Shown in pieces: positions 5,962 to 16,165 of a stretch of DNA of 39,478 bases. The position numbers and the translations under genes are program-made. How positions within the stretch are numbered: the first letter of the stretch is position 1; every line of letters begins with the position of its first letter. The DNA comes from a virus. The DNA is taken from the IMG/VR virus record IMGVR_UViG_3300029319_000144, positions 1 through 39,478 of that record; one strand, 5' to 3'. The notes below the pieces were generated by a model. That model was not told the DNA's origin, made no database searches, and worked only from the letters and a program-made list of their open reading frames with translations.

Positions 5962-7323
5962 ATGAATGTAACAAAACAACAATTCATCTCAAATTACAAC
6001 GCTCTTGAAGAGAGTGAACAGGTAATGGTTTCTGAGCTAATTGAAAACAATTCTGCAGATTCTCTTAAAGCATTCGCATCTACTTTTGGTGTTAATTTTT
6101 CAATAGACGCTGAAGAGCCACAAGAGCAAACGCCAGAGCCACAAGAGCCAATGCCAGAGCCTTCTGAAAAGATTAGTGAACCAGAACAAGAGATACCTCA
6201 AACTGACGAAATGTTGCCAATCGCTCGTGAAATGATGGCACTTGGAGATCAGCCTACAGAACCAGTTGCAACTACTGGGCCAATCGCAGTTGAAGGCAAA
6301 GATCAATCTGGAGTGGCAGATGATGTGCCAATGGATGCAGAACAAGAATCTTTTGTAATCAATGCTGCAGCAGTAGATGAAGTTGGTGAGTTAGATTTAG
6401 AAAAAAGAATTATACAACCAGCCATAGAAGCTTTACAAAAAGAAGGCATTAAAATAACTATTTCTGATTTAAAACGTCCACAACAACAAGTAGATGGTAA
6501 TGTCCCTGTTGCAGTTTCAAATGGTGAATACTACATACCACGAGCACTCGCTCGTAAGATTGGATATGGTCTGTTAAAAAAGATCAATGATCGTGGTAAA
6601 CCTGAAACTGAAGAAAAATTAAAAGAGCAAAAAGAACAGGAGCCTCAAGAACCACAGGCTGAAATGCAAGCTGCTTTAGGTAAACGAATTGGAATGAGCA
6701 ATGGTGATGAAGTTATCCCTGTTCCAAAAGAAAAACCCTCTCCCTCACGTAAACAAGAAGACATAGCAATAGCAGAAACTCTTGTTTCAGAAGCAGGGGT
6801 ATTTAAAAAAGAGGGAATGCAAAAAATTATGAATATAATTCAGAACAGGCAAAAGAGCGATTTAAATTTTAAAGAAGATTCAAAAGACTTTTTTTCAATT
6901 GTTTCAGCCCCTGGTCAATTTTCTGGATATATAGGTAGAGCACAAAGTAACTTTAAACCTACAAAAAAACAAATGAGAGATGCTTTAGATTTAGTAAAAC
7001 AAGCTAGAAAAAACGAATTAGAAGATTTAACAGGAGGAGCATTATACTTCTATAATCCTGAAGGTGCTGGCGGTAAACGCTATGCAGAGTCAAAAGCAGG
7101 TATGCAATTTATGAAAAATATTGCTAACAATCCAGATTATGTAATGACCACATCAGATGGAAAAAAAGGTGAAAAGTTTAGACTTGAGTATTTTGCTCGT
7201 AAATCAGATCTTTCCCAACGTACAGCTTTTAATGAAGTGCTACCAGGAAGAGATGAAAATATAACAAAAGATTTAATACCAGGTTTTGGTGCTACAGCTT
7301 CAGGAGAAGTAGTAGGACCATAA
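5962..7323 (+). CDS. SleB-like peptidoglycan hydrolase with long linker
   Basis: The C-terminal part (about residues 267-395 of 453) matches the cell wall hydrolase SleB/Hydrolase_2 pattern. It has an SEAG motif with the probable catalytic E277, then IMNIIQNR (289-296), APGQFSGY (316-323) and the hallmark TGGALYFYNPEG (357-368). The N-terminal part has a short helical domain and a Pro/Glu-rich linker (about 50-80). A middle segment reads VPVAVSNGEYYIPRALARKIGY (about 181-202), a pattern I associate with marine phage virion proteins. The fold predicts cleavage of murein glycan strands. Its place between portal and scaffold suggests a virion-borne enzyme acting during entry. It is also the only murein hydrolase I recognise here, so an endolysin role is possible. 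The ribosome binding site is weak. Confidence 0.8.
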   Translation: MNVTKQQFISNYNALEESEQVMVSELIENNSADSLKAFASTFGVNFSIDAEEPQEQTPEPQEPMPEPSEKISEPEQEIPQTDEMLPIAREMMALGDQPTEPVATTGPIAVEGKDQSGVADDVPMDAEQESFVINAAAVDEVGELDLEKRIIQPAIEALQKEGIKITISDLKRPQQQVDGNVPVAVSNGEYYIPRALARKIGYGLLKKINDRGKPETEEKLKEQKEQEPQEPQAEMQAALGKRIGMSNGDEVIPVPKEKPSPSRKQEDIAIAETLVSEAGVFKKEGMQKIMNIIQNRQKSDLNFKEDSKDFFSIVSAPGQFSGYIGRAQSNFKPTKKQMRDALDLVKQARKNELEDLTGGALYFYNPEGAGGKRYAESKAGMQFMKNIANNPDYVMTTSDGKKGEKFRLEYFARKSDLSQRTAFNEVLPGRDENITKDLIPGFGATASGEVVGP

Positions 7324-7324
7324 T

Positions 7325-7351
7325 CGCAGCCACCCGTTTTACGGCCCTGCG
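7325..7351 (+). promoter_or_regulatory. Hairpin 1 of a tandem pair upstream of the scaffold gene
   Basis: A GC-rich hairpin in an AT-rich genome: CGCAG (7325-7329) pairs with CTGCG (7347-7351), and an inner CCGT (7334-7337) pairs with ACGG (7341-7344) around a TTT loop, with small internal bulges. It starts one base after the stop codon of the hydrolase gene. No U-run follows, so it is not a standard terminator. It forms a near-repeat with the hairpin at 7371-7395. Confidence 0.7.
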
Positions 7352-7370
7352 TTAGATACTACCAACATAA

Positions 7371-7395
7371 GCGGCTACCCGTCCCACGGCCCCGC
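7371..7395 (+). promoter_or_regulatory. Hairpin 2 of the tandem pair, abutting the scaffold ribosome binding site
   Basis: GCGG (7371-7374) pairs with CCGC (7392-7395) and inner CCGT (7379-7382) with ACGG (7386-7389) around a CCC loop. It matches hairpin 1 at 19 of 25 positions. Three differences are the loop bases, one is in a bulge, and two form a compensating A-T to G-C change in the outer stem. The Shine-Dalgarno AAGGAGG (7396-7402) begins on the very next base, so the fold lies directly against the ribosome binding site of the scaffold gene. Confidence 0.7.
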
Positions 7396-7406
7396 AAGGA
7401 GGAAAA

Positions 7407-8252
7407 ATGGTAGAACAAGTACAAGAAGTAGAACAAGAAAATCTAGGCCCCTACAGAGGAGCGTACAGAGCAGACGTTTATAAAGACGATGTTCCTGAAG
7501 TTTCTGAAGAGGCTACCCTAGAGGAAGACACAACGTTTATGCAAGACGAAACCATTTCTGTTGAAGCTGAAGAAAAGACTGAAGTTAAAACAGAAGAGCA
7601 TGACTACAAAAAACGTTATGATGATCTCAAGAAACATTACGATGCCAAGCTGCATGAGTGGAAAGAAGAAAAGGACGCTTTAGTTTCTCAAAGCTCTCAG
7701 CCTACTATTAGTGAAGATGACATCGAATCTTTTAAAGAGAGTTATCCTGATGTTTATAATGTAGTCGAGGCCCTAAGTACTCGTGGTGCTGCAAAAGAGA
7801 TTGAGGAGCTTCGTGCAGAGGTAACTCGTCTTAATCAGCAAGAGGAGAAACTAAAGGCTAAAAGTGCTTACCAAGAATTGCTTGCCCTGCACAATGACTT
7901 TCCTGAAGTCAAAAAATCTAACGAGTTCAAGGAATGGATTAAACTGCAGCCACCTAGCATAGCGGATGGTATTCTAAAAAATAGCACAGACGTTAAGTGG
8001 GCTTCACGAGTTCTTGATTTGTACAAAGCCGACATTGGCAAAAGTAAACGTGGTCGCCCCAGAAAGCAAGGCAATGCAGCGGCTGCAGAGGCTGTTACTA
8101 AAACATCTTCTGTAAACATTGCAACAAACGCTAATGCTAACAAAAAGGTGTGGACCACTTCGGAGATACGCCGTCTAAAACCTAGCGAGTTTGATAAATA
8201 TGAAAAGGAACTAGATCAAGCTCGATTAGAAGGACGTATCGTTAATGGATAA
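7407..8252 (+). CDS. Capsid scaffold protein
   Basis: This 281-residue protein lies immediately upstream of the coat gene. It is highly acidic in its first 65 residues, strongly charged and helical in the middle (KKRYDDLKKHYDAKLHEWKEEKD and a coiled coil about 125-160) and basic near the C-terminus. It ends with a helical segment, SEIRRLKPSEFDKYEKEL then GRIVNG. This layout fits scaffold proteins that template procapsid assembly and bind coat through a C-terminal helix. A canonical AT-hook-like RGRPRK occurs at 215-220. A strong AAGGAGG site, directly beside a hairpin, implies high expression. Confidence 0.87.
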   Translation: MVEQVQEVEQENLGPYRGAYRADVYKDDVPEVSEEATLEEDTTFMQDETISVEAEEKTEVKTEEHDYKKRYDDLKKHYDAKLHEWKEEKDALVSQSSQPTISEDDIESFKESYPDVYNVVEALSTRGAAKEIEELRAEVTRLNQQEEKLKAKSAYQELLALHNDFPEVKKSNEFKEWIKLQPPSIADGILKNSTDVKWASRVLDLYKADIGKSKRGRPRKQGNAAAAEAVTKTSSVNIATNANANKKVWTTSEIRRLKPSEFDKYEKELDQARLEGRIVNG

Positions 8253-8264
8253 GGAGCTTGAAAA

Positions 8265-9239
8265 ATGGCAGTAGGAACTGCAGCCGGATACGGTAGTCTA
8301 CCTTCGGGTAATTTTCAGGCCGAAATCTATAGCCAAAAAGTTCTTAAATTTTTTCGTAGAGCATCAGTAGTTGAAGATATTACAAATACTGATTATGCGG
8401 GAGAGATTGAGAACTTTGGTGACACGGTTCGTATCATTAAAGAACCAACAATCACCATTTCATCTTACACTCGTGGTTCTGTGGTAACTCCGCAAGACCT
8501 TGCAGACGATGAAATACAATTGACTGTAGATCAGGCCAATGCGTTTGCGTTTAAAGTGGACGACATAGAAGAAAGACAGTCTCATGTAAACTTTGAGGCT
8601 TTGTCAACTTCTTCTGGTGCGTTTTCTCTAAAGCGTAACTTTGATAAAAATGTCCTGCAGAACATGATTGATAATGCTGGAATCAAAGGTGCTTCTGGCA
8701 CAGTTGAAACAGATTCCAATCTTGGTACTTCAGGCACTCCTGTAACAGTAGCAGGATCAGATGCGGGTGATGACGTTGTAAACCTCATGGCTCTTATGGC
8801 ACGAAAGCTTGATGAGCAAGATGTGCCAGAAGAGGGTCGTTGGTTTGTAGCCCCGCCTCGTGTTTATGAGAACCTTTACAAAGCGGGTGCTAAAATCGTT
8901 GAAGTTCAAGTAACTGGCGATGATGTATCTCCTCTTCGTAACGGTCTTGTAACGAATCAGAAAATCATGGGCTTCACTCTGTACAAGTCAAATGCTCTGC
9001 GACAATCTGCAGATGCTACGACAACTACGGACATGGTGTCTGTGAGTGGTGTCGGTTCAGGAGAGAACGTTGTTCTCGCTGGTCACATTTCTTCCACAGC
9101 AACTGCTTCTCAGATTGCTAAGACGGAAGCTATTCGTGATCCAGACTCCTTTGCTGACGTTGTACGTGGTCTTCATGTCTTTGGTCGCAAGGTTCTTCGT
9201 CCCGAAAGTCTTGTCCTTGGCATCGTTGACTATAGCTAA
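8265..9239 (+). CDS. Major capsid (coat) protein, P22-like HK97 fold
   Basis: The 324-residue product follows the scaffold gene with an AAGGAG site. It resembles the P22-type coat family common in marine podoviruses. The N-terminus reads FQAEIYSQKVLKFFRRASVVEDITN, followed by a GDTVRIIKEPTITISSYTRG strand region near residue 48, an FAFKVDDIEERQS helix near 87, and RWFVAPPRVYENLYKAGAKI near 194. The gene looks more GC-rich in third positions than the unknown genes around it, consistent with high expression. It should assemble with scaffold into the icosahedral procapsid on the portal vertex. Confidence 0.92.
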   Translation: MAVGTAAGYGSLPSGNFQAEIYSQKVLKFFRRASVVEDITNTDYAGEIENFGDTVRIIKEPTITISSYTRGSVVTPQDLADDEIQLTVDQANAFAFKVDDIEERQSHVNFEALSTSSGAFSLKRNFDKNVLQNMIDNAGIKGASGTVETDSNLGTSGTPVTVAGSDAGDDVVNLMALMARKLDEQDVPEEGRWFVAPPRVYENLYKAGAKIVEVQVTGDDVSPLRNGLVTNQKIMGFTLYKSNALRQSADATTTTDMVSVSGVGSGENVVLAGHISSTATASQIAKTEAIRDPDSFADVVRGLHVFGRKVLRPESLVLGIVDYS

Positions 9240-9750: not shown

Positions 9751-9780
9751 GTGGGGTTCCTTAAAAACCCCACTCTTTTT
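9751..9780 (+). terminator. Intrinsic terminator after the capsid block
   Basis: GTGGGGTT (9751-9758) pairs perfectly with AACCCCAC (9766-9773) across a 7-base loop, and TCTTTTT follows at once. This is a textbook rho-independent terminator on the + strand. It separates the scaffold/coat/decoration block from the oxygenase and tail genes. Since no promoter is evident just downstream, it may be leaky and lower expression of the tail genes relative to capsid. Confidence 0.88.
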
Positions 9781-11796: not shown

Positions 11797-13319
11797 TGCC
11801 AATCCAAGCTTTTAACGTAAACTGTGAAGGTGGTTTAGTGTTAGACCAAAGTATCTTTGCTATGAACCCAGGAGAGGCTATTACGTTGCAAAACTTTGAG
11901 CCTGATGTTCAAGGAGGTTATTCTAAGATACTAGGGTTTGAAAAGTTTGATAGCAATGCGCTTTCAGGAAGCGGTATTGTATTAGGAATATCAACTTATA
12001 AAAATCAATTTGTAGTTGCAGCAAGAGGGGCAAACGTTCAATTTTCTAGTGGATCAGGTTGGACTAACATAGCTACTAATAGAACAAGTGCAGGACGTTA
12101 CTCTTTTGTGACGTATGATTTTGATGGCACTGAAAACTTAGCGATGGCAGATGGTGTGAATGATGCTGCTATTTGGGATGGTTCTAGCTATGTAACTATT
12201 ACAGCCTCTGCAGGAGGAACTAAACCTACAGCCCCTGATGTTGTGCAAGAGTTTAAAGGCCATTTATTTTTTGGTGGCATGTCAAACTCACCTCACACTG
12301 TAAAGTTCAGCGCACCATTTAGTGAAAATGATTTTAGTGCAGCGTCTGGTGCAGGAGAGATAGCGTTTGGCAGTGATGTTGTTAGCCTTAAACCTTTTAG
12401 AGAAACTCTAATTATATTTTGTAAAAATGAAATATATAAACTTGTTGGCTCTAGCGCAGCAGACTTTCAGGTTCAACCTATAACCAGAAACATAGGCTGT
12501 ATATCTCATTTCACTGTTCAGGAGATCGGCGGTGATCTCGTATTCCTTGCCCCTGACGGATTACGTACAGTAGCAGGTACTGAGCGTATTGATGATATTG
12601 AGTTAGGGACTATTTCAAAACAAGTTCAGCCTAGACTAAATGCTCTTACTTCAAATCAAATTTCTAATTTATCATCTCATACTATAAAAAGTAAAAGTCA
12701 GTATCGCATGTATTTTCCAACCACTTCTGGCACTGAAGCTAATATGACAGGTTTAATTGGCGTATTAAAAAGAAATGCACGAACACAACAGATAGGTTGG
12801 GAATATGCAGATATTAAAGGTATCAAGCCAAGTATAGCAGCATCAGGTTTTATATCAGATGTAGAAACGGTTTTACATGGTGATTACGATGGTGGATTTG
12901 TTTACAAACAAGAAAGTGGTGGAACTTTTGATAGCACTAATTTTTCTTCTATATATAGAACTGTTGACTACGTTATGGGCGATGTAGGCATAAGAAAAAA
13001 TATGCAAAGAGTTATTATAAACTATTTAGGCACAGGCACTGTTAAAGATGTAGATTTAAATGTTGAGTACGACTACGGAGATGTTCTTCAACCTAGTCCT
13101 GCTGTGTATGATCTTAAAGATCCTGCAGGCACAGCTTTCTATGGTGGAGGCACATACGGTTCATCGACATACAATGCATCAGCATATACACCTTTATATA
13201 GACAATCTGTAGAGGGTTCAGGTTTTGCCGTAGCCTTAAAGTTTTCGGATACAAGCACTAATCCAACATATACCCTGAAAGGATTTGGATTAGAATTTAC
13301 ACCAGGAGGTAGAATGTAA
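11796..13319 (+). CDS. Tail nozzle/hub protein, beta-propeller-like
   Basis: The ATG overlaps the previous stop as TAATG. The 507 residues are nearly all beta strand. The N-terminus carries FNVNCEGGLVLD and LQNFEPDVQGGYSKILGFEKF, and repeated blade-like segments follow (NLAMADGVNDAAIWDG, DLVFLAPDGLRTVAG). This matches the class of marine podovirus tail proteins related in layout to P22 gp10 or the T7 gp12 nozzle. Placed between the adaptor and the fibre, it probably forms the distal tail tube and the fibre attachment site. Assignment is by pattern and order, not a unique motif. Confidence 0.65.
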   Translation: MPIQAFNVNCEGGLVLDQSIFAMNPGEAITLQNFEPDVQGGYSKILGFEKFDSNALSGSGIVLGISTYKNQFVVAARGANVQFSSGSGWTNIATNRTSAGRYSFVTYDFDGTENLAMADGVNDAAIWDGSSYVTITASAGGTKPTAPDVVQEFKGHLFFGGMSNSPHTVKFSAPFSENDFSAASGAGEIAFGSDVVSLKPFRETLIIFCKNEIYKLVGSSAADFQVQPITRNIGCISHFTVQEIGGDLVFLAPDGLRTVAGTERIDDIELGTISKQVQPRLNALTSNQISNLSSHTIKSKSQYRMYFPTTSGTEANMTGLIGVLKRNARTQQIGWEYADIKGIKPSIAASGFISDVETVLHGDYDGGFVYKQESGGTFDSTNFSSIYRTVDYVMGDVGIRKNMQRVIINYLGTGTVKDVDLNVEYDYGDVLQPSPAVYDLKDPAGTAFYGGGTYGSSTYNASAYTPLYRQSVEGSGFAVALKFSDTSTNPTYTLKGFGLEFTPGGRM

Positions 13320-16165
13320 TGGGTACAGGTTATACAAAAGGTCTTAGCTATTTTGTAGATGGCGAAACTATTGAGGCTTCAGATTTTACCACTGAGTTCG
13401 GTTTAGTAGACGCTGCATTTGAAACTGGTGGTCATCAGCATGACGGAACGGACGGTGAAGGGGGTGCTATAGAAAAGCTTCTTAGCAATACCATTACGTT
13501 TGGCACGGGTGCAGATACAGATATAGCAGTGACATTTGATGGTAATAGCAGTGATGGTGTTCTTACCTGGAAAGAAGATGAAGATTACTTTGAGTTTTCA
13601 GATGATATTCTCATGGCTTCTACAGAAAAGATACAGTTTGGTGACACTGCTAGCTTCATTCAACAAAGTGGTGATGGTGTTCTTCGCATAGATGGGGAAG
13701 CTACCATCGACCTCAATGCATCAACTGCGGTTACAGTAAGTCACGATCTCAAGTTAGACTCAGACGGTGCGATTTTAGGCTTTGGTGCTGATAATGATAT
13801 AACTCTAACTCATACTGCAGATACAGGATTAACTTGTAATGGCACTATAACTGCTACAGGATTTACTATAGGTTCTGCTGCAATAACAGAAGCAGAATTA
13901 GAAATACTTGATGGTGCTTCGGTAACGACTGCAGAACTAAATATTATTGACGGTAATACTTCAGCTACTTCGACTTCAGTTGCAGATGCTGATAGAGTAG
14001 TTTTAAATGATGATGGAACTATGGTGCAGGTAGCAGTAACTGATCTTGCAGCTTACTTCGATGATGAAATTACAGCCATGCCTAATCTTGTTAGCACTGG
14101 AGCATTAGACTCTGGTTCTATAACATCTGGATTTGGCACTATCAATACAGGTTCATCTGCTATAACAACTACTGGCTTAATATCTGGAGGTTCTCTTGAT
14201 ATTGATGATGTTCTTATAAATGGCACAACCATAGGTCACACAGATGATACAGATCTAATAACTGTTGCAAATGGTTTAGTTACGGTTGCAGGAGAAATAT
14301 CTGTAACTACATTAGATATTGGTGGCACTAACGTAACATCAACTGCTGCAGAGTTAAATATATTAGATGGGGTAACATCAACTGCTGCTGAATTAAATAT
14401 TGTTGATGGCAATACCTCTGCTACTTCTACTAGTGTAGCTGATGCAGATCGTGTTGTTCTTAATGACGATGGCACTATGGTTCAAGTGGCTGTTACTGAC
14501 TTAGCTGCATACTTTGATGATGAGATAACTGCTATGCCTAATCTTGTGTCTACAGGAGCTTTGGACACAGGATCAATTACATCTGGATTTGGTGCTATTG
14601 ACAATGGCACTTCTGGTATAAGAACAGATACATTTACTGCAGAAACGTCCTTTGTGCCTGATGCCGCTGATGGTGCAACGTTAGGCACTGCATCATTAGA
14701 ATTTAGTGATTTATTTTTAGCTGATGGTGGACAAATACTTTTCGGTAACGATCAAGAAATAACTCTTACTCACGTAGCAGATTCAGGACTAACACTTAAA
14801 CATGCTGCTACAGCCGATGATAAGTTTCCAACGTTGACTCTTGCGGCAGGAGATACAGACATAGCTGCTAGTGACAAACTAGGAGTAATTAATTTCCAAG
14901 CTCCTGATGAAGGGACAGGCACAGATGCTATACTGGTAGCCGCTGGTATAGAAGCTGTGTCAGAGGGTGACTTTTCAGCTAGTTCAAACGCTACGTCTCT
15001 GGTGTTTAAAACAGCATCATCAGAAGCTGCTGCGGAGGTCATGCGTATTGATTCAAGTGGTGCGGTTGGAATTGGAACTACCCCATCAGGTGGTACAGCA
15101 CTGGACGTTCGTAATGATGGTGTAATTCAAATTGTTAGCACAGATACTGTTCAACTTATAGCGTCAAATGGTGGTAGTCAGTTAAAGAATGTATCAAACA
15201 ATCCATTGCTTTTTGGCACTAATAATACAGAAGCAATGCGTATTGACGCATCCCAACGAGTGCTAATTGGAACAACTTCAGCTGTTACTGGTCATCAGTT
15301 ACGAGTTCATGGCGGTAGCGGCACTGGTGCAATTCAAATAGGAGCCGCTACAAATTTTAACAGCGTAATATCATTTGGAGATCCAGCAAATAGCTCCATA
15401 GGTAAAATTGAGTACGCTCATAATGGTGATCAGATGCGGTTTTTTGTGTCTGGATCTCAGCGTGGGCTTATTGATACTTCTGGACGACTTTTGATGCTAA
15501 AGACAGCGGCAGGATTGGCTAATACTGGCTTTGAAACACATGCTAATGCCGCTGGATTCCTTGGTACAACAAGCACAGGAGCAGCCCTTTATGTTAATAG
15601 AGAAGACTCCGACGGAACGCTTGTAGTTTTCAGACAAGATAACAGTGATGAAGGCAGCATAACCGTGTCTGGCAGTACTGTGAGTTATAATGGTGGACAC
15701 CTTTCACGTTGGTCACAAACTGCTGATGGAAACCGCATCGATGGATTGCTCAAAGGCACTGTGATGACTAATCTTGATAAGATGGCTGTCTGGACCAAAG
15801 AAGATGGCACGGTCAAGAATAATGAGCAACTTAACTGCATGGCTGTATCGTCTGTTGAGGGCGATGCGAATGTATCTGGTGTATTTGTTAATTGGAATGA
15901 AGAGGAACTTCACGACGATGCTTACGCTAGTAGTCGCGTTAACGATATGAATATCGCAATGACTGGCGATATGGTCATTAGAATTAAACAAGGCACAACA
16001 GTAGCACGAGGTGACTTGCTGATGAGTGCGGGAGATGGCACAGCCAAGCCGCAAGGCGATGATATCGTGCGATCAAAAACGATAGCAAAGGTCACCAGCA
16101 CACACGTTAGCCATACTTACAGCGATGGTAGCTATCTTGTGCCATGCGTTTTGATGGCTTGCTGA
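13319..16165 (+). CDS. Tail fibre protein with repeated central shaft
   Basis: The 948-residue product begins at TAATG coupled to the nozzle gene. The N-terminus has GHQHDGTDG (about 39-47), a His-rich motif often seen near fibre attachment domains. The central part is a Thr/Ser/Asp-rich beta shaft with AELNI-DG repeats (for example TAELNIIDG and AAELNILDG). It carries an almost perfect 64-residue internal duplication (210-273 and 362-425). A distal region with MRIDSSGAVGIGTT and a C-terminal domain (about 800-948, ending GSYLVPCVLMAC) complete it; the last domain may be a folding or receptor-binding head. The protein should recognise the host surface. Whether the C-terminal domain cleaves itself, as in some intramolecular chaperones, cannot be seen. 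Confidence 0.87.
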   Translation: MGTGYTKGLSYFVDGETIEASDFTTEFGLVDAAFETGGHQHDGTDGEGGAIEKLLSNTITFGTGADTDIAVTFDGNSSDGVLTWKEDEDYFEFSDDILMASTEKIQFGDTASFIQQSGDGVLRIDGEATIDLNASTAVTVSHDLKLDSDGAILGFGADNDITLTHTADTGLTCNGTITATGFTIGSAAITEAELEILDGASVTTAELNIIDGNTSATSTSVADADRVVLNDDGTMVQVAVTDLAAYFDDEITAMPNLVSTGALDSGSITSGFGTINTGSSAITTTGLISGGSLDIDDVLINGTTIGHTDDTDLITVANGLVTVAGEISVTTLDIGGTNVTSTAAELNILDGVTSTAAELNIVDGNTSATSTSVADADRVVLNDDGTMVQVAVTDLAAYFDDEITAMPNLVSTGALDTGSITSGFGAIDNGTSGIRTDTFTAETSFVPDAADGATLGTASLEFSDLFLADGGQILFGNDQEITLTHVADSGLTLKHAATADDKFPTLTLAAGDTDIAASDKLGVINFQAPDEGTGTDAILVAAGIEAVSEGDFSASSNATSLVFKTASSEAAAEVMRIDSSGAVGIGTTPSGGTALDVRNDGVIQIVSTDTVQLIASNGGSQLKNVSNNPLLFGTNNTEAMRIDASQRVLIGTTSAVTGHQLRVHGGSGTGAIQIGAATNFNSVISFGDPANSSIGKIEYAHNGDQMRFFVSGSQRGLIDTSGRLLMLKTAAGLANTGFETHANAAGFLGTTSTGAALYVNREDSDGTLVVFRQDNSDEGSITVSGSTVSYNGGHLSRWSQTADGNRIDGLLKGTVMTNLDKMAVWTKEDGTVKNNEQLNCMAVSSVEGDANVSGVFVNWNEEELHDDAYASSRVNDMNIAMTGDMVIRIKQGTTVARGDLLMSAGDGTAKPQGDDIVRSKTIAKVTSTHVSHTYSDGSYLVPCVLMAC
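13946..14137 (+). repeat. Fibre shaft duplication, copy 1
   Basis: Sixty-four codons of the fibre gene whose protein product matches copy 2 (14402-14593) at 62 of 64 residues; only the first residue (Ile/Val) and residue 56 (Ser/Thr) differ. Although the proteins are nearly identical, 39 of 64 codons differ by my count, 37 of them silently. Confidence 0.9.
14402..14593 (+). repeat. Fibre shaft duplication, copy 2
   Basis: Second copy of the 64-codon unit, 264 bases after the end of copy 1 and in the same frame. Total nucleotide difference from copy 1 is about 47 of 192 by hand count, almost all at synonymous positions. The preceding AAELNI-DG element is itself repeated in tandem just upstream. 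Confidence 0.9.

Follow-up and report, generated by a model that had tools for sequence, protein, structure and literature searches.

The leader of the putative scaffold gene in the marine phage analysed here almost certainly carries a conserved structured RNA, made of two small hairpins that end directly at the ribosome-binding site and share an asymmetric internal loop. Hundreds of sequences from related phages have the same element before the scaffold gene. Judging from its sequence and placement, we put at roughly even the chance that it is an operator through which a bound protein controls translation of the capsid genes.

The two hairpins and their gene context

The window, that is, the whole stretch of 39,478 nucleotides analysed (IMG/VR virus record IMGVR_UViG_3300029319_000144), contains the following features at this locus:

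5962–7323: cell-wall-hydrolase gene, upstream of the gap
7324–7406: gap of 83 bases before the scaffold gene, containing both hairpins
7325–7351, + strand: unit 1, a hairpin with outer stem, internal loop, inner stem and apical loop
7325–7329 with 7347–7351, + strand: unit 1 outer stem, CGCAG/CTGCG
7330–7333 and 7345–7346, + strand: unit 1 internal loop, CCAC/CC
7334–7337 with 7341–7344, + strand: unit 1 inner stem, CCGT/ACGG
7338–7340, + strand: unit 1 apical loop, TTT
7352–7370, + strand: linker between the units, including ACTACCAA
7371–7395, + strand: unit 2, a hairpin with the same four parts
7371–7374 with 7392–7395, + strand: unit 2 outer stem, GCGG/CCGC
7375–7378 and 7390–7391, + strand: unit 2 internal loop, CTAC/CC
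7379–7382 with 7386–7389, + strand: unit 2 inner stem, CCGT/ACGG
7383–7385, + strand: unit 2 apical loop, CCC
7396–7402, + strand: Shine-Dalgarno sequence AAGGAGG, beginning one base past unit 2
7407–8252, + strand: putative scaffold gene behind the element, phrog_13678 (unknown function)
8265–9239, + strand: major coat gene, starting 12 bases past the scaffold gene
9751–9773, + strand: strong intrinsic-terminator-like hairpin and T run, after the gene that follows the coat gene

The gene at 7407–8252 is called scaffold because it is placed just before a P22-type coat gene, whose product has its nearest relatives in Pelagibacter phage HTVC033P and the HMO-2011 group. As only 12 bases separate the two genes, the coat gene is probably under the same leader, and the hairpin at 9751–9773 is the probable end of this transcription unit. 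Elsewhere in the window, a direct repeat of 285 bases (73% identical, 13885–14625) lies within a long open reading frame (13319–16165).

The original prediction described two 25-base units (7326–7350 and 7371–7395) that match at 19 of 25 positions within the 83-base gap, and the sequence agrees. It likewise agrees on the six differences, namely three in the apical loop (TTT/CCC), one C/T change in the 5' strand of the internal loop and two that make an A-T pair of the outer stem a G-C pair, and on the last base of the second stem (7395), which lies directly 5' of AAGGAGG. The predicted hairpin fold stands, and unit 1 gains one further pair (C7325-G7351); what had been taken for a bulge is really a 4×2 internal loop (CCAC/CC and CTAC/CC). 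The element is conserved and structured as predicted, and its conserved part is this internal loop, which had been missed, as had two features described below, the nested arrangement and the copy before the coat gene. As predicted, the site is not a terminator: it has no T run, and no terminator-like site was called at 7325–7402.

Folded singly, unit 1 reaches −9.5 kcal/mol (z −2.6) and unit 2 −9.4 kcal/mol (z −1.7). The whole leader shows no excess of stability over shuffled sequences (z 0.10), so thermodynamics alone is insufficient and the proof must come from relatives. A covariance model built from 25 units scores the window units at 29.8 and 28.4 bits and finds no further copy in the window, the next best place scoring 13.6 bits; since both window units are among the 25 training sequences, the wider evidence weighs more than these scores. 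One long hairpin that pairs unit 1 with unit 2 is possible in the window but broken in L009–L015, L028 and HTVC115P, and was rejected; the pairs within each unit hold in all of these. The linker segment ACTACCAA is common to the window, its close relatives and the more distant L028 clade.

Covariation and the conserved core

In the training set of 25 units, 93.8% of cells are paired, two-sided changes occur in 8 of 10 pairs (88 double-changed cells) and covariation scores 0.806, where slid pairings reach 0.19 or less. These figures are inflated by a descriptor that demanded pairing at three positions per stem. For this reason, a separate set not used for the model, comprising the HTVC033P clade and bacterial genome contigs, was searched. 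All matches there lie on the sense strand, nearly all of them just before a scaffold gene, and in 24 distinct sequences 87% of cells are paired, with a score of 0.57 against at most 0.14 for slid pairings. The compensatory stem changes expected before the scaffold genes of related phages were thus recovered by the covariance model in both the training and the independent set. Matches in the CRP-2 clade are weaker and cover 35 of 44 loci.

The conserved core is an asymmetric internal loop, 5'-G[CYAC]C / 5'-G[C(A/C)]C, between two short stems. Among 37 units, the 5' strand of the loop reads CTAC in 25, CCAC in eight and ACAC in two, with CGAC and ATAC also seen, and the 3' strand reads CC in 22 and CA in 15. 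The apical loop varies from 3 to 9 nt and is without consensus sequence; this freedom in both sequence and length makes the internal loop the most likely place of recognition. The pairs adjoining the loop (G-C outside, C-G inside) are invariant in the strict set. Other pairs are found in unit 1 of L377 (ACAG-CTAC-TTGC..GCAA-CC-CTGT), in L201 (CC-TTCAC..GTGAA-CCAC) and in the coat copies, indicating that the signal is the loop and not its neighbouring pairs. Some stem pairs are G-U. The window element has the full composition of this double CYAC/CM loop family, with outer stem, internal loop and inner stem and with compensation between stem bases. In the HMO-2011-type scaffold leaders (L120–L199) the apical loop is conserved (CCCGACAG), unlike in other clades.

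A conserved loop between stems of free sequence, present in paired copies, recalls tandem aptamers, and the element could accordingly be read as a small-molecule riboswitch with two short aptamers. This is very improbable, for each unit conserves just six loop bases, and the element is absent from Rfam 15 and, in the data examined, confined to the capsid genes of one phage lineage.

The loop was also compared with the C-loop RNA 3D motif, whose features are listed with a 3×1 example (PMC8983868). Both are asymmetric internal loops within a hairpin with C first on the longer strand; the present loop is 4×2, and the comparison was one of sequence. Among the C-loop features, the single match is the C that opens the longer strand, found in 34 of 37 units.

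Distribution and position

Scaffold homologues were collected from viral and genome collections. The hosts of the element-bearing phages include SAR11, SAR116, Roseobacter and Rhizobium/Sinorhizobium, and Vibrio CHOED and Aeromonas phages have a divergent form (ATAC/AC, ACAC/CC). In the clade of the window, all 76 leaders contain at least one module and 65 contain two; of 1867 control stretches taken from those loci, 11 contain at least one and none contains two. A strict descriptor run over 1.05 Mb on both strands returned 39 unique units, 37 of them in scaffold leaders. Matches to CTACCCGTNNNACGGCC in GC-rich phages (members of L083–L099 outside this clade) lack the stems and were dismissed as chance. 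The scaffold leaders of P22, Slicky01 and RHph_TM3_14A are too short and lack the element.

Of about 50 leaders, nearly all have the loop core 12–22 nt 5' of the scaffold start codon; the two exceptions are parser misses, and the window has a two-loop leader with this spacing. Some relatives (CRP-2 type, CRP-13, CRP-235 and CRP-738) have only one clear loop. Although the gene upstream of the scaffold varies among the closest relatives (compared were the window, L003/L004 and L006), the hairpins remain with the scaffold; the element is inherited with the scaffold, not with the upstream gene.

The original prediction left open whether the element acts as RNA or DNA, and RNA is favoured by its orientation, its distance from the start codon and the coat copy in relatives. 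A DNA element, such as a protein binding site, a packaging site or a cruciform, would also have its hairpin preserved by the compensatory changes. Such a role is nevertheless hardly credible, given that the element is always on the sense strand at a near-constant distance from the start codon, that some of its stem pairs are G-U and that a separate copy precedes the coat gene.

Several individual loci deserve mention. In the Roseobacter phage CRP-345, the annotated scaffold start (ATGGCTACG, L112:594–627) falls inside the RNA element, and the gene probably begins in truth at the ATG that lies 33 bases further downstream. Two related contigs have a unit-like hairpin, CAGG-CTAC-CCC..GAGG-CC-CCTG, within the scaffold coding sequence (L213:1446–1472 and L215:1617–1646). 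In HTVC115P, a good extra single-unit match (L206:1749–1850; MN698247.1 24554–24584; E 4e-5) sits where gp41 ends, immediately ahead of the giant gene gp40; this site is not kept in the one relative found. The scaffold-bearing phage contigs L213, L216, L217 and L219 come from bins named Sphingobacteriales, Euryarchaeota, Bacteroidetes and Flavobacteriales, placements that are probably binning errors.

Tandem and back-to-back arrangements

The window shares its tandem layout, one hairpin per module, with its pelagiphage relatives. Phages of the HMO-2011 type and those of Rhizobium and Sinorhizobium have both loops in a single hairpin, back-to-back and 5 to 7 bp apart, with the second reversed, as in HMO-2011 itself (GTTGG-CTAC-TCACT-CC-CCATAC..GTGTGG-CTAC-GGTGG-CC-CCAAC). 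The L046–L081 clade combines one classic hairpin with one reversed hairpin. The loop of the latter (for example, L064:2360–2400) contains a palindrome alternating between GTGCAC and GTCGAC across the clade, which may allow RNA dimers. In the HTVC033P clade (L100:2935–2981), an upstream TTATGGA can pair with TCCATAA in the unit, forming a competing structure. The survival of a paired RNA module through the switch from tandem to back-to-back arrangement makes this a clear case of its kind.

A second copy before the coat gene

In HMO-2011-type and rhizobial phages, the gap between scaffold and coat genes is 155–330 nt long and holds a nested double module before the coat gene; many of these gaps also contain a TTGACA/TATAAT-like promoter. 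The phiM6 copy reads TAAAGA-CTAC-CCATA..TTAG-CC-CCCTC..GAGGG-ATAC-CTAA..TATGG-CC-TCTTTG. In an automatic search for such copies, for which the shuffle control had its 95% point at 14 and its maximum at 21 of 280, the strong copies of CRP-212, CRP-235, CRP-13, CRP-345 and phiM6 scored 20–26, and the weaker members did no better than the control. The element is farther from the start codon in coat leaders than in scaffold leaders. The coat leaders of HMO-2011-type and rhizobial phages include the following:

L111:1476–1715: coat leader
L119:1476–1738: coat leader
L113:1467–1794: coat leader
L117:1488–1701: coat leader

These four leaders share a further conserved segment, GGGCGGCCACC, as well as a strand, GCCTCT, that is complementary to the Shine-Dalgarno sequence; by its complementarity, this strand could pair with the ribosome-binding site, perhaps as a switch. 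The window, with its 12-nt gap, has no second copy before the coat gene. A copy where the coat gene is distant and none where it adjoins the scaffold gene make common control of scaffold and coat likely.

Position before a coat gene and behind promoter-like sequence would also suit an element acting on transcription, either an antiterminator RNA resembling put of phage HK022 or a pause or antitermination site for a phage factor. The put RNA consists of two small hairpins, binds RNA polymerase and causes it to read through terminators, and two adjacent conserved hairpins in the mRNA of a phage late operon resemble it in outline. However, put elements are found in early operons far from start codons, whereas the present element keeps a near-constant distance from the start codon that antitermination does not need; it lies directly before the gene, with no conserved terminator between the two. 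We consider this reading unlikely.

Proposed function

Probable recognition of loop sequence, the pairing of the copies and the near-fixed distance to the start codon together point to a translational operator, and, among the functions originally suggested, gating of translation fits best. The mRNA of the scaffold-coat operon would carry in its leader a structured RNA acting in cis, the working part of which would be the two like asymmetric loops (5'-G-CYAC-C / 5'-G-C(A/C)-C) adjoining the Shine-Dalgarno sequence. A protein would recognise the internal loops, the pair of which may serve as twin sites for a dimer or for two subunits; once bound, it would block, or less likely help, loading of the 30S subunit, and synthesis of scaffold and coat might thereby be matched to assembly. 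In folding models of 25 scaffold leaders, the element neither opened nor closed the Shine-Dalgarno sequence consistently.

The most economical candidate for the ligand is one of the phage's own capsid-assembly proteins, either free scaffold or coat, by analogy with the autoregulated P22 scaffold. The most conserved basic motif of the scaffold proteins, KKRYxDLxRH, also occurs in scaffold homologues from phages that lack the element (Slicky01, RHph_TM3_14A); its co-occurrence with the element therefore gives no support to scaffold as the binder, and the KKRYxDL motif was dropped as a candidate RNA binder.

The element could instead be a passive translation enhancer, an mRNA stabiliser or a mark for RNase cleavage, which would need no ligand and would keep the ribosome-binding site single-stranded or protect the 5' part of the capsid message. 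Its place directly before the Shine-Dalgarno sequence, in an operon that is probably highly expressed and closed by a terminator, accords with such a role, as do stems that pair nearby bases locally beside the site. Stable stems would suffice for this, however; neither a CYAC/CM loop kept over such wide divergence nor a pair of copies whose orientation is permuted would be needed, and an RNase III-type site requires a long regular duplex. We therefore regard a passive role as rather improbable and retain the translational operator as the preferred reading.

Relation to known systems

Free scaffold of phage P22 represses its own synthesis post-transcriptionally. To our knowledge, the RNA target of this autoregulation has not been defined, and we know of no RNA operator like the present element in P22. 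King, Hall and Casjens in 1978 and Wyckoff and Casjens in 1985 reportedly described autoregulation of gene 8, which encodes the scaffolding protein of P22. The P22 gene order is that of the window, a scaffold gene, post-transcriptionally controlled in P22, just before a P22-type coat gene; P22, in contrast, has 13 nt before gene 8 and no hairpin leader.

Hairpin-type translational operators include the MS2/R17 coat operator and the thrS operator, the latter with two hairpins and a dimeric protein. These resemble the present element as structured sites near a ribosome-binding site, and differ from it in that the element conserves a 4×2 internal loop, not an apical loop or a tRNA mimic; no CYAC/CM loop was seen in the thrS leader when read by eye.

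Searched against Rfam 15, the window gave no match reaching the gathering score; for 12 related loci, none of the matches listed reached it and none lay at the element on its strand. A literature search that covered few subscription papers found no description of this RNA. As a structured mRNA leader it belongs to a known kind of RNA, in which it probably forms a new family.

The balance of scaffold and coat in tailed phages is an old question, and what is found here is a compact, strongly covarying RNA tied to the genes for both proteins across hundreds of marine phage sequences. Its presence in culturable Rhizobium and Roseobacter phages as well makes it directly accessible to reporter, binding and structural studies. 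More tentatively, the element may represent an undescribed phage module, a paired and permutable internal loop through which a capsid-assembly protein would exert feedback on the output of scaffold and coat in a large group of P22-coat-type podophages that ranks among the most abundant in the ocean.
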